IMG/VR virus record: IMGVR_UViG_3300010297_000058
Span: 1 to 29,225 of that record
Length of the DNA stretch: 29,225 nt
Reading direction: 5' to 3' (one strand)
DNA from: a virus
Positions within the stretch are counted from its first letter, which is position 1; every line of letters begins with the position of its first letter. Below, piece after piece: positions 637-28,020 of the stretch. The notes below the pieces were generated by a model that saw only the letters and a list, made by a program, of their open reading frames with translations, was not told the origin of the DNA and did not search any database. A program made the position numbers and the translations under genes.

Positions 637-644
637 TATTTATT
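637..644 (-). promoter_or_regulatory. Candidate T4-type late promoter AATAAATA upstream of the 204-aa gene
   Basis: The minus strand reads AATAAATA in the 25-base gap after the giant gene, overlapping its stop codon (645-643). This matches the NATAAATA late-promoter octamer reported for T4-like cyanophages and differs by one base from the T4 late consensus TATAAATA. In T4 the octamer is recognised by the phage sigma gp55 on host polymerase with the gp45 sliding clamp. In an AT-rich genome the octamer could arise by chance, but it sits at the correct distance upstream of a good ribosome binding site. Confidence 0.55.
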
Positions 645-9600: not shown

Positions 9601-12600
9601 ACTAAATTTTTGCCTTAACGGTAAACCTTGTTCTGATAATAACGAATAGTCGTAAAACTCATCATATATATCATCTACTACTGCAAAATCTTTCTTAAAT
9701 TCTAATGCATATGCTCCCGGGCTTAACGAAAGTATTGTACCAGAAGCCCAGCCTTCAGACGTCCAAATAACAAACTCTTGAAGTGCATTATTCCAATTTT
9801 CTATAGTACCAAATTTATCATTAAAATAGTCAAAAGTAAACCCTGTTGATTTTAAATATTCTTGATATCCTAACAAGAAATCACAAACTTCCTGAGTACT
9901 TGTAAGTTTTGTGCCGTAGTTTAAATTAGAAATCTTTGTTTCAAACGTGGATTTAATAACTACAGACTTTCCTCCGTTTACCGGTAGATTGTCTAGTTTA
10001 AAATGAACATTAGTATCAAAGACGCTATCACTAGTATAATTAGACGACACTCTATAATATTCGTTTTTATACTTGACTATTTGTCCTTTTATATATTTTT
10101 TATTTTCAGTCCAATCTGCACTTGGCTCTGGATCACCACCAAATGTAAACTCTCTATCGCCCTGTCTAGTTAATGGTTTAAAATATTTAAAATTAGGATT
10201 ATTAAAGTTGTATCCTTTAACAATATATCCATCTGTTGCTTTTTCTATTATTACACCACTATACACAATTAAATCTATAGGTGAACTAGTATTTAAAAAT
10301 ACATCATAATTTTCTTGGGGAATAAAAATACCCGACGGTTGATCATTTGTAGGTGATTTACTATCTAATATAATGCTTAGTTTGTCTTTGTCTGTAAATC
10401 CTGCTAATTTAAATCCTAACTGATTGTTTATATTTTTTAAATCATACTGATAATCATCATACAATGCATATACATTTGATCCGATTAAATTATACACAAA
10501 ATTTACAAGTCCACTAGTAAACACACGTGAATTTTGATTTACTGTATTTGGTAATGATAACGATGCTAAATTAACTTGTTTTTGAGTACTTAGATATACG
10601 TTTTGATTTGCATTATTTTTTACTGTTCTTGATGTATCAAAAGCCATAGACATAAAATGTGCAGGTTTATTAAGTAGCATTGCTTTTACTAATGCAAAAC
10701 AATAAGAACTACTTCTACGCCATGCAGTTTCTACTGGAGAATGATCACCAAATTTGAAAGGTTTGCCTAAATCTCTAAACACAATATTTTCAACATAACC
10801 TGATTCAGCCGGTGACTTTAATTTACCTTGAGAATCTACTGGTACAAAATTAAGTAGTCCGGGTCTAGCATATAAAGGATTTATTTTAGTACCATTAGGA
10901 TCTTTTATAGTTCCTGTTTCTAAATCTTTCCACATTACTATGTTATCAGATGTATAAGGTGATGCACCATATTGTGTTTCCCACCATTCTGGCTTAATAC
11001 TAAATCCTAACATTTCCCACGGATGTGTATGTGGACGGTCAGTGTCATATGCATTTATGTAAACGCCTCTCCAAAATCCCTCTACCGTCTTTTTATTTTG
11101 ATTTACAGATGTGCTATAATTGTATGTAAACGTATTATCTACATTATAAAAGTCATTTTTAGTATAATCGGATATATTAGATCCTTGCATCCATTGAATA
11201 AAATCTTTTAACAGTATGTCATTAACTTTATCTGAATTAATATAACTGTTTCTATATGATCCTGATATAAAATTGTGTATATTAACTAAGGTTTTAGTAT
11301 AATCGATCTTAATATTATTATAGATACGTTTTTCAAAATCTAATAACAAGTTATCTCTAAAGTCTTTATATGCTCTAATAAAACTACCGTCGTGGCCTCT
11401 TATTAATGCAATTACAGGATATTCTTCATAATCGGTATTTGGTGCTACGCCCTTTTTAACTAAAGACTTTGGTGCATAAAAGTATACTGGTAGACCGTTT
11501 AACTTTATTGTTTCTACTTCGCCATTGGCATCAGCATCTCTTGCTGTACTTCTATCAATATATAACGGATGAAACCATCCTTGTGTAGTATGATTATTTT
11601 CTAATTGTCCATAACATGTATAGGCTAAAGTTGTATTAATTTCATCATCATTAACAAATGTATCATCAATTGTAATTTCTGGATGATAACGAGGATACAT
11701 TCCTAATTTTGTAGGTGTTGGCGGAACAAATGCTCCATCAGTATTGTCGTATTCATATATTTCTAATATATCACCTGTTTGCTGAACAGAATCTAGATTA
11801 ATAAATCCTTCATCTGTAAAATTATAATCGAGATTATAAATTAATTGTTTTCCGTTAAGATAAACATTAACTGATTTTTCTGATAGATTCGATAAATTAA
11901 ATTTCTTAGATAATCCGTAAAACTTATCATCTTTATCAAATATAGTATGTACAATTTTATTTGTTGTATTATATCCTAACATGTCTGAGAAATAGAAAGG
12001 CTGTGTTTCAGATTTATCTTTATTAATTTCTTGTAAAACTTTATCTAAATGAAGTTTTGTTTCGCCGTCAAAGCCTAAATTAGTTGCAGTATTAATAACC
12101 TCTCTTTTAAACTTCTCATATTCTTTTGCATTATATTCTATAGCATTAACAATATTAAATTTCTTACTAGTTAAGTGATATAGCGGTAAATTTAAAGGAC
12201 CTGTATGTTTAATAAATCTTTTTCCAAATTTATCAATATCTCCTAAATCTCGCAGATTACTGTTACCTGGAAACACACCGTCAAATTCTTGCAAATCTTC
12301 TACCATTGATAAAACTTGATCAGCAACTTCGCCAAATGTAAAACTTGTAATTTCTTCATTTAACGGATTTTTTTCTAAATTTAAAGGTATTTCATAAAAT
12401 CCATTGTCATTTTTATCAGCAGCAGAAGTAGTCTTTATTACAACACTGTCATTTTCGTTTAAGTCGTTAGTAAATATTACCGTTGCTTTAGAATCCTGTC
12501 TATAAATTGTATAATCGGTAATTTCTTTTTGTATATTATTATTAACAAATACACTTACAACTAAATCATTTAAATCACCAGGAGCATTGTAAACATCAAT

Positions 12601-14814: not shown

Positions 14815-17800
14815 TAGTAACTATATCCTCCACCATTTGAATTATTCGAACTTCCAGAGTTAGGCGAACTTACACTACTACTCGAACTTGAATTACCGGT
14901 GCTTGTTGCACTTGTGTTTGCTGTATTTGATGTAGTAGATACAGTTCTACTTTGTACTTCAGATGTTAGTGTAGTAATAGATGTTACTACATTTCCTGAT
15001 GCTTGTAAATTATCAGACGTTAGTTTGTCAACAATTTCTATATTATCAACTGTAGCAGCACTAATAAATATTTCGTTTGATTCGGCACTTATTTCAAATA
15101 AACTACCAAATGTCTGTGTCGATCTTTTTGGTACAATAACTATACTTAACAGAGTTGGACTTAACACATTCATTATATAAGAACTAAGTTCTTGAAAGTA
15201 AAATGTGTCTCCAAAATCCCAATTTTCAATTTGAAAAAATTGATTTATTAAATCAATAATTCTACTCTTTAGTTCATTGTTGTTAATGGCAATTCTATCA
15301 TTTTTTACAATTTTAAATGTTACTTGAAGATCTTCGTTAGCTTTATCGCCAAACAACATTTTATACTTTACTGGATGAAATACAACTTCGTCACTTATAC
15401 TTTTTATTTGATAAATTTTAGATCCGTAGTTTCTAAATAACTCGTCAGTGCTAGGTGGTAAAGGTTTTACACTAAGACCACCGTTAATATATGTTCGCAT
15501 TGCTTGATCATACGATTTAACAAGCAAATACGTATCTAAAATATTAGAAGTTGCTGGATCAATTCTATAATTAGAATCAGAAACATGTACATAATGAAAT
15601 TTTAAATTATCTCTACCTATAAATGCTTTATAGTCATTTATAATACTAAGATTATTTTGAGTTTTATTTAATACCTTAAATAAATCAAAATCAGAAAAGT
15701 AAAAAATCTGTCCATCATCAAAATTTACATAAGAACCTAATTCTGAGTCATTGGCAAATTCAGTATTAATAGTACCATTGCTATTATCAAAATATCGTTG
15801 TGAAATGATGTTATCTTTTTTAGTAATTTTCTGGAATATATATTTGTCATTGCCGATAATATCATTGAACACTCCTAGATTATCAGCTATACCATCCGAA
15901 TCACTGTCAACAAATTTTAACTGTATTTTAGTATTATCAACGTAGCCAAACGAGTCAGTATATGAATCAGAAATATGCCAAACAAAATCGTTATTAAATG
16001 CTATATTGTTTAATTGATCAGGTTGTGTGTTAATATTTAAAACAGTAATTTTGTCTTGTTGTACTTGATTAGTCTTAGGATCGTATACTTTGTTATTACC
16101 ATCATAGAAGAATTTTATTTCGTCTTTGCTTTCAAAAATATATCTTATGTTTCTATAATTAACTGTATATTGTTGTCCGTTAGTTTTAAAATAAAATATC
16201 CAGCTCGAATCTAAGTTAGATGAAAGAGTACTACCGGCGTTTTGCAAACCAAATTTAGAAGTTGTATTAATGTCTTCTGATTTTATAAGTTTCCATTGAG
16301 CACTATTTTGATCATATCGTATGCCAAAATCTTTGTAAGAAAATGCTCTATCTATTATTTGAGTTTTTAAATCTGCAGATAATGCTAATGCATATTTTGG
16401 CAGTATTTCTACTAATAAAGAACCATTAGGAATTACGTCATTAAATGTAATAGGTCCTTGACCTGTTATTGTGTTTAGCGTCCCGTCGGCATCGACTGAT
16501 TGTACCGAAACCCATTTATATGTAGAGGAACCTGGATGGTCAGCTGTACCTGCCATTATTGTATCGCCCATAAAGTGATACCCTGTAGGTGCTTCAAATT
16601 TACACAATGCTCCTGCTTGTAAATTTTTAAGTGCATTTACTGTGTAAGTTCCTACTGGGTAAATGTTATCATTGTCAACGTTGTTTCCGCTAGGTGTAGA
16701 AAATATTTCGCCGCTGTCAAGAGTCTTTTCAAAATAACCAGTAGATGCATTTGTAGTTGATGTAACTTGTTTCCAATATGCTTGTAAATCGATTGTGCTT
16801 TGTTTAAAGAAATTTGCAATATAAAAATTTCTTATATTTGGAGACTTAATCCTAGGTTCAATGTCACTATATAATATGCCTTCAATATCAGATTGTGTTA
16901 CAAACGAAAAATTAAAACTATCTGTGAATTCTTCTTTATATAATACTCCGTCATTACCGTATAAATTTGTTGCTGAGTACTTACCGCTTGGATCTCGTAA
17001 ATCTAAATACCTACTTACTCCACTTGATATTCTATTTACAGTTCGTGTTTTAATAATATCCTGATCAATCCCTAAAGGACCAATATTATAGTCTTCAGCA
17101 GTTATTAGTCTGTTTTGTGTATAGTAAGTTGCTGGAGCATTTTGTTTTATATCTGCATCTGTTTCAGACGGTCTTGCATTAGTTACAGAAGTTTTTAATC
17201 CTAGTGTAATTGTCAGTGTTTCTTGTCTATTAATTTTACTTACGTAAGGAATTTCGATTGTTACATTACTAATAGTGTTAGGGTTAATTACCATATTTCT
17301 ATTATCACTAGTTCTATAATACAAACGAAATTTACCTGCAGGTAAATTACCAAATACACCATCACTAAACACAAGATTTACTCTGTCATTTACTCGAGTA
17401 GTAACTGCATAAACATTTTTGTTATTAGCAAATAAACTGTTATAAATTATGTTGTTACCTTCAACCGAATCAAGTTTTGTCCATAAATCAAGTTCAAAAC
17501 CATTGGTGTCAATACCATATAGCCATAAATCAGAATTATTAATATTTGAATTATCAATAGCAACAGTTTGATTTGGAATTGGGTTAGTAATATCAAACAC
17601 AACACTATCCATTGTACCTTGTCTAAAGTGCATAAAAAATCCTGTATTTGAACTACCGGCGCCTTGACCGTCATTTCTATACACAAACGACGGACTAACT
17701 CCAGGTAATGGTGGTTCTTCAATTATTGAATCTCCGCTTATAATTGTACTTGTAACTTCGAATTTAGTAGATATACCCTCTACTACAGCTTCAAAATTAT

Positions 17801-18395
17801 ATATCGGAACATCTGCATTTAACGCATTAAATGTATATTGCTCAGTAGTAATATTTTGTAAATTTGCAATGTTAGATGGATTTCCAATAGAGTTTTCACC
17901 TGGCAATGCAGAATTTAAAATTTTATTAAATTGTTCAAAATAATTAGGATTTGATCTGTCATTCCATACTACAGTTTTATTGGCTAAATTATTACCGTTA
18001 GTATCAATAATACCTTCAGTAGTTGATACACTATCAAACTTTAATAGTCCGTTGGCTGCTTTGTTCCTTGTAGGATTATACGAAATTAATCTAGCTAATC
18101 TTAGAACACTTTCTCGACGTTCTGCTGTTTCTAAAAAGTTTTCTCTAGCATTTAAGTCAATTCTGAAGGATAAGTTTTGTCCTAAAAATGCAATTAAATC
18201 GATTAGCGCAAGATATTCTGAACTTTCAATATAATCATTAAAGTCTTCTGGGTAATTTTGACGTAGGTAATTAATCATTGTCCTACGTAAGTTGTCAAAG
18301 TCGTAACTTTGAAAGTCTGCATTACGAAAAGATTGATAAACTCGTTTCCAATCTTCTGTTGCTAATAATCGCGATTGCCTATCAGTTGATGACAT
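14814..18395 (-). CDS. gp6: Baseplate wedge protein gp6-like (1193 aa)
   Basis: Homologue of T4 gp6, the wedge subunit that forms the inner ring of the baseplate and joins neighbouring wedges. The N-terminus is diagnostic: SSEYLALIDLIAFLGQNLSF (about 58-77) followed by ARENFLETAERRESVLRLAR (83-102) and LISYNP, the gp6/gpJ-like signature. I chose the ATG at 18395, preceded five bases upstream by GAAGGAAA. An in-frame TTG at 18410 would add five residues but overlaps that ribosome binding site. At 1193 residues it is nearly twice T4 gp6 (660 aa); the extra length lies in the middle and C-terminal parts. The last 50 or so residues are a Ser/Thr/Asn-rich, low-complexity tail ending GGGYSY. The stop codon overlaps the giant gene's start (TAATG), and gp25 lies just upstream, the T4 order. 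Confidence 0.92.
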   Translation of the reverse strand: MSSTDRQSRLLATEDWKRVYQSFRNADFQSYDFDNLRRTMINYLRQNYPEDFNDYIESSEYLALIDLIAFLGQNLSFRIDLNARENFLETAERRESVLRLARLISYNPTRNKAANGLLKFDSVSTTEGIIDTNGNNLANKTVVWNDRSNPNYFEQFNKILNSALPGENSIGNPSNIANLQNITTEQYTFNALNADVPIYNFEAVVEGISTKFEVTSTIISGDSIIEEPPLPGVSPSFVYRNDGQGAGSSNTGFFMHFRQGTMDSVVFDITNPIPNQTVAIDNSNINNSDLWLYGIDTNGFELDLWTKLDSVEGNNIIYNSLFANNKNVYAVTTRVNDRVNLVFSDGVFGNLPAGKFRLYYRTSDNRNMVINPNTISNVTIEIPYVSKINRQETLTITLGLKTSVTNARPSETDADIKQNAPATYYTQNRLITAEDYNIGPLGIDQDIIKTRTVNRISSGVSRYLDLRDPSGKYSATNLYGNDGVLYKEEFTDSFNFSFVTQSDIEGILYSDIEPRIKSPNIRNFYIANFFKQSTIDLQAYWKQVTSTTNASTGYFEKTLDSGEIFSTPSGNNVDNDNIYPVGTYTVNALKNLQAGALCKFEAPTGYHFMGDTIMAGTADHPGSSTYKWVSVQSVDADGTLNTITGQGPITFNDVIPNGSLLVEILPKYALALSADLKTQIIDRAFSYKDFGIRYDQNSAQWKLIKSEDINTTSKFGLQNAGSTLSSNLDSSWIFYFKTNGQQYTVNYRNIRYIFESKDEIKFFYDGNNKVYDPKTNQVQQDKITVLNINTQPDQLNNIAFNNDFVWHISDSYTDSFGYVDNTKIQLKFVDSDSDGIADNLGVFNDIIGNDKYIFQKITKKDNIISQRYFDNSNGTINTEFANDSELGSYVNFDDGQIFYFSDFDLFKVLNKTQNNLSIINDYKAFIGRDNLKFHYVHVSDSNYRIDPATSNILDTYLLVKSYDQAMRTYINGGLSVKPLPPSTDELFRNYGSKIYQIKSISDEVVFHPVKYKMLFGDKANEDLQVTFKIVKNDRIAINNNELKSRIIDLINQFFQIENWDFGDTFYFQELSSYIMNVLSPTLLSIVIVPKRSTQTFGSLFEISAESNEIFISAATVDNIEIVDKLTSDNLQASGNVVTSITTLTSEVQSRTVSTTSNTANTSATSTGNSSSSSSVSSPNSGSSNNSNGGGYSY

Positions 18396-18401
18396 AAAAA
18401 T

Positions 18402-18408
18402 TTCCTTC
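18402..18408 (-). promoter_or_regulatory. Ribosome binding site that fixes the gp6 start
   Basis: GAAGGAA on the minus strand lies six bases before the ATG at 18395-18393. An alternative in-frame TTG (18410-18408) overlaps this element, so the ATG is the better start and the protein begins MSSTDRQSRLL. Confidence 0.75.
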
Positions 18409-18419
18409 AATAACTTTTA

Positions 18420-18450: not shown

Positions 18451-18888
18451 TTAATCTTTAGTACTTTGTTGATCAAATCGAAACAATAATTGCTCTGAAA
18501 TATTGTAAGGCAGATAGGATAATAAACAACTTACTTCAATACCTGATTCATAAGTATCAACAAATACATTCTCAACTTGAACTCTCGGATCATAGTTTAC
18601 AATATTTGTAACATTCTCTAATATAGCATCTCGCACATCATCAGTAAATGGTTCCCATAATAGATCCCAAATCACACATCCAAAATACGGATCACTTAGT
18701 TTTTCGCCACGTTGTATATGGAAATGATTGATAATGTCTTGTTTAATAAGCTCAAAATCATATAATGCAAATCCTTCGGTATTTTCGTTAATACTAGAAA
18801 ATCCTCTATAAGATCTTCCAACTGCTGATGGCGTTGGTTTACCTTGTACAGTAACTCTTTTGTATAGGTTTTTTTCTAATGAACTCAT
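18451..18888 (-). CDS. gp25: Baseplate wedge protein gp25-like (145 aa)
   Basis: Member of the GPW/gp25 family, a small wedge subunit found in nearly all contractile injection machines, which sits at the sheath end of the wedge and helps initiate sheath assembly. Visible hallmarks are FELIKQDIINHFHIQRGEKL (45-64) followed by DPYFGC, the WxxLxEPFTDDV segment (74-85), the core NYDPRV motif (98-103) that corresponds to the conserved EPR-type core, and a C-terminal GIEVSCLLSY strand. The length is close to T4 gp25 (132 aa). It starts at ATG 18888, with AAGG ten bases upstream and only 12 bases after the gp5 stop codon. gp25 next to gp6 is the T4 arrangement and supports the call. Confidence 0.93.
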   Translation of the reverse strand: MSSLEKNLYKRVTVQGKPTPSAVGRSYRGFSSINENTEGFALYDFELIKQDIINHFHIQRGEKLSDPYFGCVIWDLLWEPFTDDVRDAILENVTNIVNYDPRVQVENVFVDTYESGIEVSCLLSYLPYNISEQLLFRFDQQSTKD

Positions 18889-18900
18889 ACTGTATTTACC

Positions 18901-21864
18901 TTATGCAAATGCTGATCGAATACGAGTATTTTGCTGAGCTCTACCACTAGATATTTTAGAAGCCCATGTTGCTGTTTGATTATACCAAGAAAAGCCGCCG
19001 CCTCTGTCATTTCCAACAATATCTACGTGTATATTACTAGGCCAAGACATATAAGGTCTACCATTCTTTTTGTAGCCACCTACAGCACTACTTCCGCCGT
19101 ATTTAATAAACAGTCTTCCAAATTCTGCACCTAACGCAGTATTCCATAATATTTGATTTTCTGGACTTACTGAGTTTTCATAAATTCTAATATCAGCAGC
19201 AGATCCAAAATTGTGTCTAGGCGAACCCGTGCCTACTAATATGTCAGGTTCAGATGGATGTATCCAGCCTTTTTGACCGCCGATATACCCTTCCCAGCCG
19301 CCTTCTGATAGGCACTGATCTTTTGGCATTTGCCCGCCGCTAAAGATTTCTACTTTTACATCTAATTCTAGTGCAACTTTAATTAATAAATCTTCAAGTC
19401 GTTGTTCGCATCTAAGCCTGCGAGCCTTACCTTTACAATTATAGTATAACGGATCTCTGTTTACTCCTTCTTCACCGTACTTTACTTTGCCGTATGCTTT
19501 TCCAGTTCCCGAATATGGACGATAATCAGGATCAGTTGCAGGTGGAGTTTGTGAACTTGGTGTTCGATCAATCGGCATAGTATCAGCATCGTCGTTTTCG
19601 CCACTGTTAGGTATAGTACTGCTAGTAATATTACCGCCTGTGCCTAATACTCTGATAGAACTAGCAGATGATTTACCTTTATCAAACGCATCAGGAGAAA
19701 CAAACACATCAGTACTTGTAAGTGTACCAATCGATTCTCTGTCTGTTTTGTCTCTTTTAAATTCTACAGGGTTTAAATTCTCATGATGTGGCCAAGGCTC
19801 GTGCTGCGGTGCTCTTGGTACAATAGTTTGGTACGGAACTGGAGTAGGATTACCTGGAAATACATATGGAAGTGTATGAGTACTTAAAGGCGTAACGTTA
19901 CCATATCCTCCGCTATCTCCATTAGCCTTACCTCCATTATCTCCTCCAGATGATAATCCAGGACTTGCGTTTACTAACGCACCCGATGCAGTTTTATTAG
20001 GTAACGGTAACTTCGTATTTTTTGCTAACGCCGCAGGTATTGATGTTGGTGCTGATCCTGAAAAACTAAAACTATGCGAATTTAATTTTTGATCATCGTC
20101 GGATCCAGTATCAGACCATACACTGCCGGCAGTTGTTCCGTTAACACTACCTGCTGTTAGGGCTGAAACATCTGTTGTTAATTTAACTTGTAAATTTCCA
20201 TCAATATAACTATCAGTTGCTTTTATATTAACTAGACTAGATTCTATATCTAGTTCGCCTGTACTTTTATGATGAATTGTTCCTGCTGACAGATTGCTAA
20301 TCTTAGAAGTGTCAGCAGTTAATGTTTCGTTAACAATATTCTTTTGTGCAACATTTTGTATATCACCAACTATAGTTTTGTTTAATATATTTTGTCCAGC
20401 TGTTGTGTTTATAGTGTTACCAACTTTGGTGTTTATATCCTCGCCAATATTAAAGTTTGCAAATTCACCGTCTAAGTGATAAATTCCTTCTACAAAATCA
20501 TACATATTAGACCCAGATGTTCTATAAAAACTATTCGCTGACTTTAAATGTATGTCGCCTTCAGACTCTAAATAAATATGTTTTGCTTTAATACTTAATA
20601 TTTCATTTTGTGAGAAATTATTAGCGCCGCCTGCAGAAGTATTGTTATTACCTTTTACAGCAACATTGTAATCTCGTTCTGCAAGAATATTTGTATCGAA
20701 TAAACTTTCAATTTGCACTCGGCCACTTTCAATACCGGCTTCACTTGCCTTATAATCACTCCAACGTGCAGACGCTTTAACATTTACATTTCTACCTGCT
20801 TCCATATTGATATCACGTTCGGCAGTAAAATTCAAGTCAGTATCTGTCATTACCGAAATACTGTCTTGAGCATGTATATCTATTTTACCGTCTGACGATA
20901 ATTCAATCCAAGCAGTACCTCTTGAATTAGCAATATAGATTAAATCTTCTGAATTATGTAATAAAATCTGATGTCCGGTTCTAGTTCTAAAACGCATTAA
21001 TTCATTATGAGGAATAGTTTCGTCGCCTCCTTCTTCTAGTCGCTGTCTATTAATATATATAGGCGGTCCATCCTCAGCATGTGTTGCTCTTATTAACTTA
21101 TCGTCTCCGTCATCCATTACAAAACTACTACCACCGAGTCTATTAAACGGTACTTCAACGCCCCCGTCGGTTTCGCCATAATGAGATTTAGGACTACCCT
21201 GACGCTTATCCATCGGTCCTGGAGTAGAAAGTCCAAATACCATACTTGGTACTTCTCTTACTGCGCTTGTTGTAGTTGTTCCTCTTGCTTCGTCATCAAG
21301 TAATCCCTGAATCTGTAAAACACTTGTAAAATCTTTATTATATGGTCTAGCAAACTGTGACGGATTTGTCTTTTCACCTGTTTCAAACGCTTTATTATAT
21401 TCGCCTACAGGTAGTTTTTTACCTCTTAATTCTTTTGGAGTTCTTTCTGTAGTATTTTTTGTGCTAGGACGTCCGTCTGGTATTAAAAAATTCATATTTT
21501 GATCAGGTATACATCCAATCCAATAACCATTACTAGAATTTCCTTCTGCAAATATAACCAATACTCTAGTTCCATAATCTGGTGGAACTGCCCACATACC
21601 ATAACTTTTTTGAGAATTTTCAAAACCGTCTTTAGCCTTTAAATTATTTACTGGTGTTACTCCATAAAAAGGAGATAGGTATTTTACCTTTACTAGTTGT
21701 CCACTACGTTGCGGTGTATTACTGGCTGCATTATGTCGTAAAATTTCAACCTCTAACGACCCTTGATAATGAGGATCTAAATGGTTTATAATTATGGCTT
21801 CAAACGGGCCAGGGCCTCGTAGATTTGCATTTTTTAAAAGTCTAGTTCTTTTATAACTTAACAT
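18901..21864 (-). CDS. gp5: Baseplate central spike/hub gp5-like protein with C-terminal M15-type peptidase domain (987 aa)
   Basis: Spike protein at the tail tip, expected to be a trimer that pierces the outer envelope. Residues about 16-130 form the gp5-type OB-fold: GPFEAIIINHLD, GSLEVEILRH, SYGMWAVPPDYGTRVLVIFA and YWIGCIPDQNM. Residues about 295-560 are a VgrG/gp5-like beta-helix, with strands such as GTAWIELSSDGKIDIHAQDS and TAERDINMEAGRNVNVKASA. A Gly/Ser/Pro-rich linker follows (about 570-800). The C-terminal domain (about 805-975) has SGGQ (842-845), RHNFGSAADI (883-892) and HVDI (946-949). These give the HxxGxAxD plus later His pattern of M15/VanY-like zinc peptidases, with ligands His884, Asp891 and His946. 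T4 gp5 is 575 aa and carries a lysozyme between OB-fold and helix; no such lysozyme is visible here. A Glu three residues before the last His, common in M15, is Ser943. Peptidase activity is therefore likely but unproven. Confidence 0.85.
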   Translation of the reverse strand: MLSYKRTRLLKNANLRGPGPFEAIIINHLDPHYQGSLEVEILRHNAASNTPQRSGQLVKVKYLSPFYGVTPVNNLKAKDGFENSQKSYGMWAVPPDYGTRVLVIFAEGNSSNGYWIGCIPDQNMNFLIPDGRPSTKNTTERTPKELRGKKLPVGEYNKAFETGEKTNPSQFARPYNKDFTSVLQIQGLLDDEARGTTTTSAVREVPSMVFGLSTPGPMDKRQGSPKSHYGETDGGVEVPFNRLGGSSFVMDDGDDKLIRATHAEDGPPIYINRQRLEEGGDETIPHNELMRFRTRTGHQILLHNSEDLIYIANSRGTAWIELSSDGKIDIHAQDSISVMTDTDLNFTAERDINMEAGRNVNVKASARWSDYKASEAGIESGRVQIESLFDTNILAERDYNVAVKGNNNTSAGGANNFSQNEILSIKAKHIYLESEGDIHLKSANSFYRTSGSNMYDFVEGIYHLDGEFANFNIGEDINTKVGNTINTTAGQNILNKTIVGDIQNVAQKNIVNETLTADTSKISNLSAGTIHHKSTGELDIESSLVNIKATDSYIDGNLQVKLTTDVSALTAGSVNGTTAGSVWSDTGSDDDQKLNSHSFSFSGSAPTSIPAALAKNTKLPLPNKTASGALVNASPGLSSGGDNGGKANGDSGGYGNVTPLSTHTLPYVFPGNPTPVPYQTIVPRAPQHEPWPHHENLNPVEFKRDKTDRESIGTLTSTDVFVSPDAFDKGKSSASSIRVLGTGGNITSSTIPNSGENDDADTMPIDRTPSSQTPPATDPDYRPYSGTGKAYGKVKYGEEGVNRDPLYYNCKGKARRLRCEQRLEDLLIKVALELDVKVEIFSGGQMPKDQCLSEGGWEGYIGGQKGWIHPSEPDILVGTGSPRHNFGSAADIRIYENSVSPENQILWNTALGAEFGRLFIKYGGSSAVGGYKKNGRPYMSWPSNIHVDIVGNDRGGGFSWYNQTATWASKISSGRAQQNTRIRSAFA

Positions 21865-21889
21865 TTTTACTACCTATATTTGTCATTAT

Positions 21890-24649
21890 TTAAAATGTAA
21901 TTAATTCTGTTGTGCCATCTGCTCTTAATATTTCATAATTTATATATACATTTGATTCAGTAAGATAACCTGTAAACAAATCTCCTTCATTTAAATTATT
22001 TTCTACATCAGGAAAGTCTGCTGGTACATAAAAACCAGTTATTGTACGGCCTAGAGCATTTATTTGTGCTCTGCCATCGGAGTTAGTAGAAATACTAGAT
22101 ACTAATTCATCATAATCTGATGAAGTGAATCGAATGTTTTCTGCTAGACGCTTTTTAGCTTCAACTTTGTTGCTGTATGTGTTTCTTTTTATCTTTTCAA
22201 AAGAATTTTCCATAGCGCCAGAACCGTTATACATAAATTCATACCCTGGTTTAGTAACTATAACCTCTCCCGTGTTTGAATATGATATGTCAGTATCTTT
22301 AGGTGCTTCGCCTATTACTGCACCTGTTGTTGCATCGATAATTTGTCCGTCACTTTCTACTGTTTCGTAAGATGCTAAAGCTTCGAGGAATTCGTCGTCG
22401 TTTGCTGGAGGCAAATAACCTGATGACTGTTTCTTAGACACTATATCACGTTTCCATTCTGTAATTGAAGTGGAAGATCTACTAATAGTTTTTGTTGTTG
22501 GTAAAGGTTTTTCAGACAACCCTACGGTACCGGCTGGCCTGTTATTAAATGTTTCGCTATAATAAGAAACTGGATTAGACAAGTTTGTCTCAATAGTATT
22601 CTGTCTATCGGGTGAATAAAATTCGTCTTTAAATTTATCAGATCGTTTTTTTAAATTGTTAATATTCTCTATTTCCCTAGGATCATTTAGGTCAATTCCT
22701 TTTGTTGCAACATAAGTGTTTCTCATACTTGTAAGATCATATACACTAGATGCTTCTTTATAATAACTAGCAGTAATTTTAGCACCTATCGTAGGATCAT
22801 ATACAAGGTCAGGTGTTGATACTAAATCTATACCGATTTTGTCTGACATTTTTCTATAATTATCTTCTCCGGCTAAACCAATAAATCCTCTAGGTTTAAA
22901 TTTAGAGCCACCTAAGGATGTATAAATTTCATCAAAGAATAAATTAGGATCTTCTTTTATAGTATCTAAAGTTGAATCAGTGATGTTTTCTGCTAATGGT
23001 CCGTATTCATATCTTATTTGTTCATTTGAGAAACCTGCAACACTTTTAGTTGCGTTAGGATTCAATGCACTTTGGTGTTCTACCATTGCTATAATATTAG
23101 ATTTTACAGTATTATCTGTAATTCCTATATTTTCTAATTCTGAATTTATACTATTTGCCGAACTCAATGCTTGCCCTGTTGTTGTTACTGCAGGAAGTTG
23201 AGTTGTAGAGTCTATTACACCTCGGCCTCTTTCTTCAAAGCTAGGGTATCCTTTGTATATACTAGTAAAATTGTCTTCAACTTTATCTGCTTTGCCTATC
23301 GATTCGTTCTTTGACATATGGTTTGAATCAATTGTTCCGTTGTTTACTCTAAGATCTCTAACCATTCTTCCTAATCTAAAATCGTAGCGAGTGTAATGAG
23401 GTTCCATAGGCTTATATTCGTAAACATTACTATTAGCAGATGGCAACTCGAGCGATTTATTTGGATGAGCAGTTGTGCTGCGCCCTGCTGTCATAATATT
23501 ATTATTACCAGTAGCAAAATCTGTAGTACGTTTTAGACTAGCGCCACTTTCAGGATCAGCAACACTTGTTCCATCTGTGTTTATAACTGATTTAGTAATT
23601 TTTCCTGTGCCGCCGGTTCTAATATCTTTAAGAGCTTGTGTAAAATTAGAGCCTTTGTGTCCTACACCATTTATTCCGTCACCGTCGTAGAAACCCTGTC
23701 CTTTGGAAAGATTAGTATTTGGGATAGGAACTCCTTTATACTCTCCTACTGCTCCTTTTGATACATCAAACGGCACTGGTACACTTGCAAACTCCATAGC
23801 TAATTGTAGTTGAAAATCTTGATCTGATAATTTTCCAGCCTTCCATTTTTTTAGTTTTCGAAATCCTTCTAGTCTTATAATTATAAGAGCATCTTGCACT
23901 TCAGGAGTAAATCTAATAATATCTTTTTTATCGTTTAGTCCTGCATTCTTAATACAGTAATCTAGTGTTACTTTGATAAATTGATATCTGCCAACTGCTG
24001 ACGATTTACCTGGTTTACCTTCTCTACTGACTAATTCATTTTGTTTTTCTTTCACATCATCTAAGGTCATACTGCATAGTCGATTATCAGTTTCTCCCAT
24101 CCAATGCGCATTATAACCTAGAGGACCTGATTCGTATTTTGCAATTAAATCAAGTAACTTTTTATCTTGCTCAGTAATAGTAATGTACTCTTTGCTGTCT
24201 TCGTCTGCACTTTCAGATATGTCTGAAATTTTGTCTCTATTATTATATGTTTCCCCACTAGTAGATTGACTAGAAATCACACTTGTGCCATTGTTTAAGT
24301 TTATCTTTTTTGCGTTAAAGTCACCTATAATAGTTGCTTCGGGATATTGGTTCTTTATCTCTAGTGCCTTTTCTGTTGTAAGTTTAAGAGAGGCTCCTGC
24401 TTCCATAAAATCAGTAGCAGAAACAAGAGGTATAATTGTTGCTCCTTCTGCACTAGCTGCACTTTCAATTGCACTCTTATAAGAAGGTAACCCATTTTCA
24501 GGATCATCATTGGGCGGAACCACAACTATAGTTTCGTATCCTTTTAACTTTAAATCTTTAATAATTCTAGTAAGATTTTCGCCTGTGGTTGCAGCAGGTA
24601 AATTTTGATCATTATTGCCAATAGATATTATTGCAGTTTTTTTACTCAT
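21890..24649 (-). CDS. Multidomain tail-associated putative peptidoglycan hydrolase (SGNH-like, GH104-like and GH19-like domains; 919 aa)
   Basis: Placed between the hub-like protein and gp5, so probably a hub/tail-tip enzyme that opens the cell wall. Residues 5-115 resemble the second half of an SGNH hydrolase: GNND at 11-14 matches block III (GxND), but the nucleophile block is absent and no DxxH is seen. Residues about 160-300 resemble the lambda R-type lytic transglycosylase family (GH104): a probable catalytic Glu173 in KYESG, SSAVGRYQF (216-224), FTPEVQDALI (247-256) and a C-terminal FASVP like ASLP in lambda R. Residues about 505-635 resemble GH19: NIIAMVEHQSALNP (518-531), NEQIRYEYG (542-550), PRGFIGLAGEDNY (586-598) and GIDLVSTPDLVYDP (606-619). 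The position of the usual GH19 HES Glu is Gln526. The C-terminal third is unassigned. The start ATG overlaps the upstream stop codon by four bases (ATGA), implying translational coupling. Confidence 0.72.
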   Translation of the reverse strand: MSKKTAIISIGNNDQNLPAATTGENLTRIIKDLKLKGYETIVVVPPNDDPENGLPSYKSAIESAASAEGATIIPLVSATDFMEAGASLKLTTEKALEIKNQYPEATIIGDFNAKKINLNNGTSVISSQSTSGETYNNRDKISDISESADEDSKEYITITEQDKKLLDLIAKYESGPLGYNAHWMGETDNRLCSMTLDDVKEKQNELVSREGKPGKSSAVGRYQFIKVTLDYCIKNAGLNDKKDIIRFTPEVQDALIIIRLEGFRKLKKWKAGKLSDQDFQLQLAMEFASVPVPFDVSKGAVGEYKGVPIPNTNLSKGQGFYDGDGINGVGHKGSNFTQALKDIRTGGTGKITKSVINTDGTSVADPESGASLKRTTDFATGNNNIMTAGRSTTAHPNKSLELPSANSNVYEYKPMEPHYTRYDFRLGRMVRDLRVNNGTIDSNHMSKNESIGKADKVEDNFTSIYKGYPSFEERGRGVIDSTTQLPAVTTTGQALSSANSINSELENIGITDNTVKSNIIAMVEHQSALNPNATKSVAGFSNEQIRYEYGPLAENITDSTLDTIKEDPNLFFDEIYTSLGGSKFKPRGFIGLAGEDNYRKMSDKIGIDLVSTPDLVYDPTIGAKITASYYKEASSVYDLTSMRNTYVATKGIDLNDPREIENINNLKKRSDKFKDEFYSPDRQNTIETNLSNPVSYYSETFNNRPAGTVGLSEKPLPTTKTISRSSTSITEWKRDIVSKKQSSGYLPPANDDEFLEALASYETVESDGQIIDATTGAVIGEAPKDTDISYSNTGEVIVTKPGYEFMYNGSGAMENSFEKIKRNTYSNKVEAKKRLAENIRFTSSDYDELVSSISTNSDGRAQINALGRTITGFYVPADFPDVENNLNEGDLFTGYLTESNVYINYEILRADGTTELITF

Positions 24650-27600
24650 GGCTCGTCTGGCCTTCTCAATATAGTTCTACCACTTACGTCATTACCATCA
24701 GTTTGATTTTCTCGATAAAGGTTACCATAATAGTGTCCCGATGATCCTTCGCCTTCAGTAGTTTGATTAGCTCGTCTAATTAATTTTAAATTTTGTTTAA
24801 ACTCGCCGCCACTAAAACTATTTGACACCCCAAGTATTTGGAATAGTCCACTAAACGGTCTTACAAGCTCAGGCATATTCATTACAAAATTTCCCATTTC
24901 TTTAGGATAATCAATCGGTGTTTTAAAATTGATAATACATAGTACTTCGTTATTTAAATATTCAACAGTGCCATCCTTAGACACATTTGGTGATAAAAAT
25001 CCTGACTTATAATTTCCTTGATCTGTAGGTAGATAGAACGGATCTCCCCAAATTTCCATTGTAGCAGATATCATTTCTATTTCACTGTTAATAATTCTAT
25101 TATGAAAAGTTTCAGCAATACGTCTAGCAGTAGTTTTTGAATAACTGCCATTTAAAAATTGATGATCATTCCTTGCTATTAGAGATATAGCTCTTGAGTC
25201 ATAATCATCGTTATTTTCGGTTCCTGAATCATTTTCCGCTATCCGAGGATTGCTAACTATACCAGGTATTATTGATAATTTATTTGTGTTGTCATAACCA
25301 GATCCTACGTCACTAAGAACATTATTAACAAATGCATTATTAAAATTAATATTAAAATCTATAATATCTTCATTTTTTCCTGTATATATGTAATCATATT
25401 CTTTTACAGCAGAATCCTTTAACTTTTTTGTATTCATTGGAGATTCACCAGGTGCTAATGTCTTTGCTTCGTCTGGTAAATACGGATGTACACAATAAAC
25501 ATACGTCATTCTATGCCTACCAATAGATTTTTCGATATCTGTGTCATATTCAATAAAAACCATAGGCTCAATTATAAACCATTTCTTTTTACCGTCATTT
25601 GTTTTTTGTGGGGCTTTTTGACAATAGTCTGTATCTAACATTACATCTTCAATTATTTGTGTAATTTTTGATTGCTGAGGATACGTAAAAAGGTTAGAAG
25701 TTACGGCAGTTTCTAATTCTGCAGAATTCTGAAACATAATAGACTTTTCTTTTGCGGCGTTAGGATCGTTTGGTCCAACAGACACTGCTGCCGGTGAAGC
25801 ATTAGACGAATCATTAGATTTAGTAGGGTCTCCTAAAATTTTTGATCTACCTAGTTCGTTTACATTGTCTTCGTTCAGTCCCCATGCTCTTAAAGAACTA
25901 TATATCGGAGGAGCATTAAAAAATTTAACATCCGATTTTACTGTTGCAACTTTTTCTGGTGCATTAGGATTGTTATCTTGTCCGCCTCTTTCTGTTTGAT
26001 ATTGGTTTTCTGCATCTATCATTAGTGCATTAAGGTTTGTTTTAAAACCGTTATAATTATTATACGCCTGTATTACACTATCTTTCTTTTTAGGAAATAA
26101 AATTAAATATCTATCATATCCTTTTATTTTTTTAGATTCTTCTAGTTTTTCTATATGTTCATTAATATTTCTTGTTATACTTTTATTTGATGTTTCTAAT
26201 ACTTCTGCAGCAGTTCTTCCTGAAGCATTTACATCAGTTTTTATAGTATTAATAGAATCTTCAAAAGCTATTTCAGAGTATGCTACTGCTTTAACACTGT
26301 AAACGCTTCCTGATTCTGTAACGTCAAAATCTGTGTTTATTATCATAATAGGGATATATTTGTCAATTACGCCAGGAGCTTTTATTTTTTCGCCTGTCGG
26401 TCCGTATCCTTCAAATGATATTTTTAAACAAAAAGGTATTTTGTTAAAACTTGAATATTGCTTTTCTTCAGCAGTAATTTTTAATGCTTCTAAAAATTTA
26501 CCCATACTATAAGGTTCAGTTACTGTAAAATTTATAGTAGTTCCTAAAGATACTCCGGTTTTTGAATTTGGGGCAATTACACTGTCAATTTCCAAATCAT
26601 CTATAAAATACTCTGCGTGGCCTTTTAATTGTTCAACCTCAGCAGTAGTAAGTACTCGTCTATCTGTGCCGCCACCTGATCTAATTATTACACTTTCAAA
26701 TCCGTTAGTTTTATATTTTGATGCATTGTTATATTCTTCAGGAGATAAAACTCCTAAAGTAATTCTATAATTATATATACTATGTACTCTTAACGGATTT
26801 TTAAGTTTATTACCTTGCATAGGTATTCCGAGATTTGCAAGATCGTCAGTTATAGACATAGGGTCATTAAATAACTCTATAAACGAATCTGCACCTTCTA
26901 TAATATCAGTAAGTCCTGTAAAAAATTTATTACTTCTATCAATTTGTAAAAGGTCTGATAATGGCTGTTGTAAATTTCCTGTTAGATTAGATAATTGTCC
27001 TGCAAAATTTGAAATTTGACCGATTGTATTTGTAAGATTTGTTAGTTTTGCATTTTTTGAGCCAAAAACACCAGCAATATTATTAGCCGATATTAGTGCA
27101 TTATTAACATTAGAAAGATTAGATATGCTGCTGCCTGGTTTTAGATTTCCAAGGCTAGAATTAATACGATTTAAATTGCCTACGATAGAACTCGAACCTC
27201 CTAGAAGATTACCTGTTACACTATTAACTTGTTTTGAAAGATCATTGTTTAAGTTTACTCCTAGTATTCTAGCAGTATCAGAAAGTGGATTTTTTATTGC
27301 TCCAATGTTTCCTGCAAAATTTCCAGATAGTCCAGTTATCGAACTTATTTTACCAGCTGTTTCTAAAACACTAAGTCCAGATAACGACGTAGATAGTATA
27401 CTATCAAGAGCAGGTATTTTTCCTGCTATACTTCCAAGCCCACCACCGGTTGCTCGACTTAAAGAATTAAGACTTGCAATTGTACCACGCAATGCAGGAT
27501 TAATTGTACTAAGTGAATTAGAAATATTTGCAGCAACTTTATTTCGTTGAGGATCTAATGCTACAGTTGTTGCATCTGCAAAAGTAGTAATCGAATCTGT

Positions 27601-27735
27601 TAATTCACCAGGGAGTAAACTAGGGTTACTTAACGGTGACGAAGTTATATTTTTTGGTGCAACATTACTATCAACGTTTGCTGACGAACTTCTCGGCGTT
27701 TGTGTTACTGGTTGATAGTAAGACTTCGGTGCCAT
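24646..27735 (-). CDS. Baseplate hub-like structural protein with low-complexity N-terminus (1029 aa)
   Basis: Probably the gp27/gpD-like hub partner of gp5; this is inferred from fold-like patterns and position. Residues 1-270 are rich in Leu, Asn, Ser, Gly and Ile with repeated short L-x-N-L/I-x-G units (for example LTNLTNTIGQISNFAGQLSN, 231-250), probably helical or fibrous. Residues about 315-500 form a beta domain: SIYNYRITLGVLSPEEYN, FIDDLEIDSVIAPN, GTTINFTVTEPYSMGKFLEA and YIPIMIINTDFDVTESG, recalling the tube-like domains of hub proteins. The C-terminus has ATMEIWGDPFYLPTDQGNY (about 895) and FSGLFQILGVSNSFSGGEF (961-979) followed by KQNLKLIRR, a segment much like the final domain of hub proteins of the gpD/XkdQ/gp27 type. 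The start ATG lies three bases after the gp53 stop codon with AGGA seven bases upstream. T4 gp27 is only 391 aa, so the N-terminal extension is unusual. Confidence 0.65.
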   Translation of the reverse strand: MAPKSYYQPVTQTPRSSSANVDSNVAPKNITSSPLSNPSLLPGELTDSITTFADATTVALDPQRNKVAANISNSLSTINPALRGTIASLNSLSRATGGGLGSIAGKIPALDSILSTSLSGLSVLETAGKISSITGLSGNFAGNIGAIKNPLSDTARILGVNLNNDLSKQVNSVTGNLLGGSSSIVGNLNRINSSLGNLKPGSSISNLSNVNNALISANNIAGVFGSKNAKLTNLTNTIGQISNFAGQLSNLTGNLQQPLSDLLQIDRSNKFFTGLTDIIEGADSFIELFNDPMSITDDLANLGIPMQGNKLKNPLRVHSIYNYRITLGVLSPEEYNNASKYKTNGFESVIIRSGGGTDRRVLTTAEVEQLKGHAEYFIDDLEIDSVIAPNSKTGVSLGTTINFTVTEPYSMGKFLEALKITAEEKQYSSFNKIPFCLKISFEGYGPTGEKIKAPGVIDKYIPIMIINTDFDVTESGSVYSVKAVAYSEIAFEDSINTIKTDVNASGRTAAEVLETSNKSITRNINEHIEKLEESKKIKGYDRYLILFPKKKDSVIQAYNNYNGFKTNLNALMIDAENQYQTERGGQDNNPNAPEKVATVKSDVKFFNAPPIYSSLRAWGLNEDNVNELGRSKILGDPTKSNDSSNASPAAVSVGPNDPNAAKEKSIMFQNSAELETAVTSNLFTYPQQSKITQIIEDVMLDTDYCQKAPQKTNDGKKKWFIIEPMVFIEYDTDIEKSIGRHRMTYVYCVHPYLPDEAKTLAPGESPMNTKKLKDSAVKEYDYIYTGKNEDIIDFNINFNNAFVNNVLSDVGSGYDNTNKLSIIPGIVSNPRIAENDSGTENNDDYDSRAISLIARNDHQFLNGSYSKTTARRIAETFHNRIINSEIEMISATMEIWGDPFYLPTDQGNYKSGFLSPNVSKDGTVEYLNNEVLCIINFKTPIDYPKEMGNFVMNMPELVRPFSGLFQILGVSNSFSGGEFKQNLKLIRRANQTTEGEGSSGHYYGNLYRENQTDGNDVSGRTILRRPDEP

Positions 27736-27738
27736 ATA

Positions 27739-28020
27739 TTATCCTATGCTCTTTGTTAAATATTGCTCTTGCGGTAGATAAATTTTTGTACCTGCAATAA
27801 AATCAAAAATAGGATCTTTTAATATATCAGTATTTCTCTGAGCAAATACCCACCATAAATCTTTTGATCCATATAATGCCATTGCAAGTAAGTCAGGTCT
27901 ATATGTATACGCTGCTGGAATTTCAAACAATATATCGTCAGACGCTCTTGGAACTGGTCTAGGAACAAATAAGTCTAAATATCCTTGATTATTAATTGGT
28001 GTATTTTCGTATAACTTCAT
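27739..28020 (-). CDS. gp53: Baseplate wedge protein gp53-like, short form (93 aa)
   Basis: Resembles the core of T4 gp53, a wedge subunit needed to join wedges around the hub. The signature is YRPDLLAMALYGSKDLWWVF (40-59), which aligns with the T4 segment RPEELANAIYGNPQLYWVLL, followed by QRNTDILKDPIFDFIAGTKI and YLP, a LysM-like tail found in short gp53 relatives. At 93 residues it is about half of T4 gp53 (196 aa) and lacks the long C-terminal part. The start is ATG 28020, overlapping the upstream stop codon by one base (TAATG), with AAGGAT nine bases upstream. Position beside the tube-cap-like and hub-like genes fits a baseplate role. Confidence 0.82.
   Translation of the reverse strand: MKLYENTPINNQGYLDLFVPRPVPRASDDILFEIPAAYTYRPDLLAMALYGSKDLWWVFAQRNTDILKDPIFDFIAGTKIYLPQEQYLTKSIG

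Follow-up and report, generated by a model that had tools for sequence, protein, structure and literature searches.

A putative tail-tip cell-wall-breaching module divided between two adjacent baseplate-locus proteins of an uncultured T4-related phage

In the parts of PMC3622015 and PMC5259590 that deal with the spike, gp5 of phage T4 is described as carrying one lysozyme between its OB fold and its beta-helix. RaK2 gp078 is described in PMC3622015 as having a beta-helix and a C-terminal lysozyme, a 'very unusual domain composition', and the passages of PMC5259590 (2017) on phage CBB also describe a tip-added enzyme for the gp5-like CBB_240, possibly with an M23 peptidase; there, CBB_240 is a confirmed structural protein, CBB_240, CBB_241 and CBB_242 stand in the virion table, and the second lysozyme of CBB is not confirmed as structural. 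Hub gp15 of phage A-1(L) combines lysozyme (residues 56-265), endoglucanase and peptidase domains, with endoglucanase and peptidase activities reported, and the account of gp15 in PMC10966104 claims none for the lysozyme domain. Muramidase tips of the VgrG3 kind are known in type VI secretion (PMC9927483), and NlpC/P60 peptidases borne on the tails of jumbo phages are mentioned beside tail-associated lysozymes (PMC7824862). Here we describe a locus related to these systems in the IMG/VR virus record IMGVR_UViG_3300010297_000058, of which the whole 29,225-base stretch (positions 1 to 29,225) was analysed and is called the window hereafter; its subject is a gp5-like spike and the protein encoded directly upstream of it.

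With a probability that we put at roughly three in four, the locus encodes a module by which an uncultured T4-related phage breaches the cell wall at its tail tip, and in which a glycan cutter and a peptide cutter are carried by two adjacent proteins, likely to share a role at the tail tip. In the mechanism proposed, the M15-type tip of the spike, itself devoid of an internal lysozyme, would cut peptide stems, and the GH104 domain of the partner would cut glycan strands. A short motif in the partner, termed DRYDF, would dock it on the hub or spike, and tail contraction would push both cutters together through the outer membrane, with opening of the murein. What the sequences themselves show is the domain families, their catalytic residues, the order of the genes, the motif and, in relatives, exchanged and fused forms; we infer from these that the partner is located in the virion, that the motif docks it, that both enzymes are active and that they cooperate there. 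The original prediction, made from the letters and open reading frames (ORFs) of the window, had already placed the two genes side by side, and ORF calling returns them as such on the minus strand, at 987 and 919 amino acids (aa). The features of the two proteins are as follows, with expectation values given as E.

18901..21864, minus strand: gp5-like central spike, 987 aa (ORF; phrog_13211 'baseplate hub subunit and tail lysozyme', E 2.5e-45)
21490..21819, minus strand: OB-fold domain of gp5, residues about 16-125 (PF04717, E 0.014; R2 pyocin spike match)
20980..21477, minus strand: gp5 residues 130-295, between OB fold and beta-helix, in which no lysozyme domain was found (family searches, model)
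20533..20919, minus strand: start of the beta-helix region of VgrG/gp5 type, residues 316-444 (DUF2345, PF10106)
18907..19476, minus strand: predicted M15-type domain at the C-terminus, residues 797-986, with H884, D891 and H946 as candidate metal ligands (invariant residues, profile, middling fold match)
21890..24649, minus strand: partner or 'cassette' protein of 919 aa, flanked by the hub-position gene and gp5 (ORF; same gene order in relatives)
24263..24649, minus strand: N-terminal alpha/beta domain, residues 1-129, Rossmann-like, with SGNH-like motifs in permuted order (fold comparison)
23753..24184, minus strand: GH104-type domain, residues 156-299, catalytic Glu173 (phrog_90, 1am7, 8kea_A)
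23345..23431, minus strand: DRYDF-type motif, residues 407-435 (half-trained profile, E 2.2e-9 for the held-out window)
22607..23185, minus strand: GH19-fold domain, residues 489-681, with neither catalytic Glu retained (Q526; by alignment A533/T534/K535) (fold, alignments)

Relatives were compared in a first set of 202 loci with a complete gp5 end, the window included (74 representatives at 90% identity), and in a larger set of 344 loci (112 representatives). The domain hidden Markov models (HMMs) drew their training sequences from the set to which they were applied, and library searches confirm a sample of the rows.

The gp5-like spike and its tip

The spike has the order of parts that defines the gp5/VgrG family, an OB fold followed by a beta-helix region (from about residue 300), as had been predicted. 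The Pfam match of the OB fold lies under the curated cut-off, and the same residues 16-125 superimpose on the R2 pyocin spike (Z 7.3, root-mean-square deviation (rmsd) 2.7); DUF2345 is matched at E 8.2e-7, just under its curated cut-off. VgrG chains are found both by profile (best E 2.6e-4) and by Foldseek, and spikes are likewise matched in fold comparison. Sixty named phage records match the spike, among them CBB (E 1e-39), and the 40 matches listed are mostly in records of 280-490 kb.

Between the two folds, residues 130-295 give no Pfam or PHROG family match, and the low-confidence model of this stretch holds only one helix of more than five residues (177-185), on which grounds a hidden T4 lysozyme is rejected, in agreement with the original prediction. 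The stretch is conserved across an alignment of 56 gp5 proteins, relatives with different tips included. Moreover, in 344 gp5 proteins no match of our own HMMs, two GH24-type lysozyme profiles among them, begins before residue 310, and among 16 gp5 proteins scanned with Pfam, Phage_lysozyme occurs only at the C-terminus (L099, L213). Taken together, these two results leave no trace of a replaced internal lysozyme in these spikes. The enzymes that the spikes carry look, from their sequences, like additions to the tip, such that the earlier description of the arrangement as 'replacing' the T4 gp5 lysozyme is not upheld.

The tip of the window's spike is predicted to be an M15-type metallopeptidase, and the support for this comes from residues, from a profile and, at a middling level, from fold comparison (see below). 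H884, D891 and D948 are invariant in all ten representatives by column count and H946 in all ten by aligned rows, which gives the His-Asp-His metal-ligand set of M15 peptidases in 10/10. A profile of 13 tips, searched against the PDB, has as its best match (E 0.005) the L-Ala-D-Glu peptidase 2vo9; of the six highest-ranking matches, four belong to enzymes of the L-Ala-D-Glu or M15 kind, one of them presumably LysB4, and two to viral VP1 chains (E 0.08-0.1). At the same gp5 position a clear M15_4 domain stands in L031 (E 8.3e-12) and in L041 (E 1.6e-14). Searching named phages by tblastn with the tip returned nothing at E<=0.1, and the best 50 rows of the VIA-align fold comparisons of the two proteins contain no M15 peptidase proper and no SGNH hydrolase, which is not evidence against either.

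The partner protein and the DRYDF motif

Four pieces are recognisable in the 919-aa protein, whose model has a mean predicted local distance difference test (pLDDT) score of 67.6. The GH104-like domain of the original prediction is borne out by phrog_90 (E 8e-19 over residues 114-356), by a profile match to lambda lysozyme 1am7 (E 0.025) and by a fold match to 8kea_A (Z 11.4 over 154 residues, rmsd 3.2), which is moderate for a helical domain. Its length and range suggest that 8kea_A is gp15, the hub of cyanophage A-1(L). The catalytic Glu, in the first helix, is Glu173, kept in 34 of 37 such domains and equivalent to Glu19 of lambda R, whose type of enzyme forms family GH104.

The GH19-like domain is confirmed as a fold and not as a glycosidase. 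Its structural matches are clear (Z 18.3 to 7r6s, 15.1 to 9eoi and 14.9 to 4ok7, endolysins scoring about 15), and the first catalytic Glu is Gln526 here, and Q, V, I, T or K in 8/8 proteins, the second being Lys in 7/8 and Gln in 1/8. Gln again stands at the Glu position of the window when the domain is aligned directly with the GH19 tip on L390 gp5, where HTES is kept. An active GH19 enzyme in this protein is rejected, the catalytic residues being absent; to judge from these substitutions the domain is probably not an enzyme, and probably binds the wall or acts as a spacer without catalysis. GH104 is the only glycan-cutting domain of the partner that looks active.

The original prediction had missed two elements, the DRYDF motif and an alpha/beta domain at the N-terminus. 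This domain resembles half of UDP-GlcNAc 2-epimerase (Z 8.8). A permuted SGNH hydrolase was also considered: of 52 family members, two have a Lipase_GDSL_2 match at E<=0.05, the better one at 0.003, and in L028 and L213 the SGNH-like blocks are permuted, a GTND-like block standing first and GDSNA late. This assignment is uncertain, the fold comparison ranking epimerase halves instead. Relatives of the domain occur at residues 448-552 of L383 gp5 and in the L213 and L215 cassettes, which have no recognised wall enzyme.

The motif, of consensus YxYxxxxPxDDRYDFxTGKKV, is present in nearly every relative of the first set, on the gene next to gp5. Its profile was built from half of 64 strict copies, taken alternately, the window being held out, and was run over 2025 ORFs (at least 60 aa, plus strand, from 239 overlapping or near-identical loci, together with those of the window). 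At E<=1e-3 it was found in 183 of them, of which 166 lie directly upstream of gp5, 3 directly downstream and 1 is the window's own; the other 13 belong to loci outside the gp5 table, with gp5 cut off or missing. No shuffled ORF of 2024 passed this threshold (best E 0.19). Degenerate copies below the threshold are present in L083, L089, L227 and L232, and no match was obtained in the four named outgroups L097, L099, L100 and L104, nor in L034, where upstream sequence is missing. In the larger set 75 of the 112 representatives have the motif at this threshold in a neighbouring ORF, and in 32 of the 112 the motif-bearing neighbour has no recognised enzyme and stands beside a glycosidase-tipped gp5. 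Since the motif is kept in such enzyme-less partners, and in some relatives also stands at the end of a hub-position protein to which a peptidase is fused (see below), its most likely role is to dock the partner on the hub or spike. In the titles and abstract openings listed by the literature searches, neither a DRYDF family nor an exchange of glycosidase and peptidase between gp5, hub and neighbour is reported, the motif itself not having been used as a search term.

In L033 (3776-5976; 6001-9654), GH104 and the motif lie on two overlapping ORFs, either as a real split or through a sequencing error: a 496-aa ORF has GH104 (Glu kept, with an insert of ~65 residues) and the next, of 236 aa, has the motif. 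The gp5 of this locus has gained a Hydrolase_2 domain (E 5.8e-8) after its M15-like domain.

Exchange of wall enzymes and the gene neighbourhood

When each gp5 tip and its partner are classed as peptidase (P), glycosidase (G) or without recognised enzyme (0), the 112 representatives divide, as tip/partner, into P/G 38, G/0 36, 0/0 14, G/P 13, 0/not scorable 4, P/not scorable 3, G/G 3 and GP/P 1. Every scored peptidase-only tip (38/38) has a glycosidase partner, with GH104 in each, and where both tip and partner have an enzyme the classes are opposite in 51 of 54. These counts ignore a degenerate GH19 where GH104 is present, and contain some assignments made individually: the L383 tip was scored by eye as SleB from its likeness to the Hydrolase_2 of L033, the partners of L385, L389 and L390 were scored by eye as CHAP, the L385 tip was scored as both classes and left out of the 54, L334 was given the GH104 of its cluster mates L335 and L336, and L034 and L375, without an upstream ORF, are not scorable. 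L033 is outside the scored counts, which become 39/39 and 52/55 with it; without L389 and L390 the opposite-class count is 49/52. Among the 36 glycosidase tips beside enzyme-free partners, 26 are VgrG3-like by our own HMM, and the Pfam family VgrG3-like_C (PF21277) is matched in gp5 of L050 (E 5.5e-29) and L063 (E 5.2e-23).

The same cutters also occur in exchanged positions. In nine representatives the arrangement is reversed, with GH104 on the gp5 tip and M15_4 on the upstream ORF, which is the hub-position protein in eight, the ninth (L275) being cut by the contig end. In L227 library searches place M15_4 on the hub (E 3.8e-14) and phrog_90 on gp5 (E 3.8e-22), and the first 856 residues of the M15_4-fused protein match the 1029-aa protein of the window (E 5e-101). 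Hub-fused M15_4 recurs in L377, with a GH24-type tip, and in L383, with a tip that is SleB-like by eye; both have copies of the motif (E 1.6e-9 and 6.3e-8, respectively). Furthermore, all three domains of the 919-aa protein have relatives on gp5 proteins: GH104 at E 6e-11 (L227) and 4e-18 (Atu_ph07, where spike and GH104 form a single protein), GH19 at 9e-7 (L390) and the N-terminal domain at 4e-4 (L383), these E-values being computed against four sequences only. Exchanged arrangements, gp5-borne relatives of all three domains and retention of the motif without an enzyme together make a split of glycan and peptide cutting between two tail-tip proteins better supported than when it was originally proposed; what has been lost from that proposal is its GH19 part, and presence in the virion is still an inference. 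The pairing is consistent across a large clade of these sequences, without statistical proof. A wider reading, to which we give even odds, is that DRYDF defines a slot beside the spike gene by which any wall enzyme or none is mounted on the hub-spike, that cutters are exchanged between slot, hub C-terminus and spike tip, and that a lone peptide cutter on the spike is always accompanied by a glycan cutter in the slot, across this uncultured T4-related clade.

Some loci depart from the pattern of tip and partner. Eighteen of the 112 representatives are without a recognised tip enzyme; 16 of these have the hub-position gene directly upstream and two have no upstream ORF. Some loci among L285-L317 (for example L289, L294 and L316) have a recognised enzyme neither on the spike tip nor in the neighbours. 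CHAP-like cysteine hydrolase genes, seen by eye, directly follow gp5 at L390:8661-9428, L389:8271-9023 and L385:9287-10363; those of L390 and L389 have the patterns WCAxFxxYxL and GGHIGF. All three may encode a peptide or amide cutter beside glycosidase tips. The L389 protein has no PDB match at E<=1.

ORF calling and family searches place the two genes in a T4-type baseplate block on the minus strand, in the order 228-aa structural protein, gp53-like, 1029-aa hub-position protein, 919-aa protein, gp5-like, gp25, gp6 and a 4723-aa giant. The neighbours are as follows.

27739..28020, minus strand: gp53-like baseplate wedge protein (phrog_7145, E 1.8e-24)
24646..27735, minus strand: 1029-aa hub-position structural protein (phrog_11190 'virion structural protein', E 9.4e-22)
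18451..18888, minus strand: gp25-like baseplate wedge protein (PF04965, E 6e-7)
14814..18410, minus strand: gp6-like baseplate wedge protein (phrog_10646 'baseplate wedge subunit', E 2.7e-286)

The start codon of the 919-aa gene and the stop codon of the 1029-aa gene share bases (ATGA), and AGAAGG lies 11 nucleotides (nt) upstream; from the stop of the 919-aa gene to the start of gp5 it is 25 nt, confirming the adjacency predicted; overlap and spacing are consistent with translational coupling. A PDB profile search with the hub-position protein gave 10 matches at E<=5, the best at 0.028, which are taken as chance, and NCBIfam returned 0 families for the three proteins searched. The 4723-aa single ORF adjoins gp6 (window 643-14814, minus strand), and giant ORFs stand there too in named jumbo relatives (Paride_0436, GAP32_230). 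The relatives L242 and L243 lie on contigs of 153 kb and 335 kb binned in one Candidatus Neomarinimicrobiota metagenome-assembled genome, which may be a hint of the host or a mis-binned phage.

Alternative readings and relation to described systems

Several observations weigh against the two-protein module. The AlphaFold2 model of gp5 is poor overall (pLDDT 56.5), although the ten-residue blocks over 801-930, the part with the Hedgehog match discussed below, score 72-95. In L021, L022 and L023, full-length relatives of the 919-aa protein, Asn takes the place of the GH104 Glu while the M15-type tip ligands are kept, such that the glycan cutter may be dead there. The window's own copy of the motif is divergent (PHYTRYDF), and named phages give no convincing match to the motif, the only two being Stenotrophomonas records at E 5, which were rejected, no baseplate gene being annotated around the RAS14 match. 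The three exceptions to opposite classes (3/54), the jumbo outgroups GAP32, RaK2 and XaC1, have a glycosidase on both proteins; GAP32 gp5 has in addition a weak M23 peptidase match (E 4.4e-4, under the cut-off). The L385 tip, outside both counts, has a phi29 gp13-like and an M15-type domain together, with no GH104 partner. Finally, a tree of the gp5 core, quickly made and with several long branches meeting, contains few changes and yields only three independent pairs where both proteins have enzymes, or four where all with a tip enzyme are taken. The paired trait follows in 2/3 and 3-4/4 of them and never goes in the opposite direction, and sign tests are not significant (p 0.5 for three pairs, 0.125-0.25 for four); the 74-row tree gives no significance either.

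Some of these points bear on particular alternatives. The cassette could serve the hub as a structural adaptor or as an assembly factor, with enzyme domains as optional passengers and entry lysis left mainly to gp5, as the 32/112 enzyme-less motif cassettes beside glycosidase-tipped gp5 (26 VgrG3C, 4 GKYQ, 2 GH24b) and the loss of the GH104 Glu in L021-L023 and of the GH19 Glu in 8/8 would allow; retention of the GH104 Glu in the other 34 domains, and the GH104 partner found for all 38 scored peptidase-only tips, suggest instead that the enzyme matters, and we regard the adaptor as unlikely though of some weight. Doubt may also be directed at the spike, whose tip would on this account be a Hedgehog-like or binding module and not a peptidase. 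None of 13 tip domains matches a Pfam M15 model at E<=1, no conserved acid stands just ahead of the last His, and the fold comparison lists N-domains of Hedgehog, a signalling protein, with middling scores (Z 7.0-7.6, where 8 counts as clear); the Pfam and fold results also detract from the module as a whole. Hedgehog and M15 enzymes have a common superfamily fold. The four residues His884, Asp891, His946 and Asp948 are invariant, the best profile match is a peptidase, and M15_4 is clear at the same place in two relatives, all of which leaves a binding module distinctly unlikely.

It could further be supposed that the 919-aa gene encodes a free lytic protein, such as an endolysin, and merely happens to lie in the baseplate operon, the two PHROG families that match its domains best both being named 'endolysin'. 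This we consider improbable, as the gene stays in place with the same motif even where no enzyme is recognised, a hub-position protein is the fusion partner in a related arrangement and gp5 proteins carry these domains too. A module of one peptidase and a pair of active glycosidases (GH104 and GH19) would accord with the clear GH19 fold, and is made highly improbable by Glu substitutions in all eight proteins, with Lys or Gln at the second position, where the gp5 tip of L390 keeps HTES.

If the two-protein module is correct, T4-like tail-tip lysis would shift from one built-in lysozyme to a mix-and-match system with a mounting motif, it would be predictable which spikes require a partner enzyme, and the motif could be a marker for virion wall enzymes in uncultured phages.

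Tail tips with two activities are already known, and the arrangement described here, which fits them in its domains and gene context, would be a variant of them. With T4 gp5 the window's spike has in common the OB fold, the beta-helix, the baseplate neighbours and a presumed wall-breaching role; it differs in that no lysozyme was found between the two folds, in its peptidase-type tip and in the placement of a glycan cutter on a separate protein. The gp5-like proteins of RaK2, CBB, GAP32 and XaC1 come close, having a lysozyme after the beta-helix and a second lysozyme gene beside gp5 (GAP32, XaC1, CBB) or a few genes on (RaK2), but both lysozymes are of phage-lysozyme type, with no GH104 or M15 match and no DRYDF motif. 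Atu_ph07 gp5 (L097:5797-8394) also joins spike and GH104, in one polypeptide and ending in an apparent trypsin-like protease instead of M15; this putative serine protease, after GH104 at residues about 691-857, was seen by eye (NAHVV, DIAQL, GMSGGPV) and matches phrog_9683 'protease' (E 8.8e-10). A-1(L) likewise has a two-activity tip, with all domains on one hub and a spike, gp25, described without an enzyme domain. The phi29 tail-knob protein gp13 reportedly has glycan and peptide cutters at a single tail tip, and differs from the window in being one protein of a short-tailed phage with Gram-positive hosts; L385 gp5 matches PDB 3csr 'Morphogenesis protein 1' (E 1.7e-4), presumably this same gp13. 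Lastly, the evolved VgrG proteins of type VI secretion (VgrG3-like) resemble these spikes in having a C-terminal enzyme, and VgrG3-like tips occur in 26 representatives, whereas the window's spike has an M15-type tip and would serve phage entry and not the killing of rivals.

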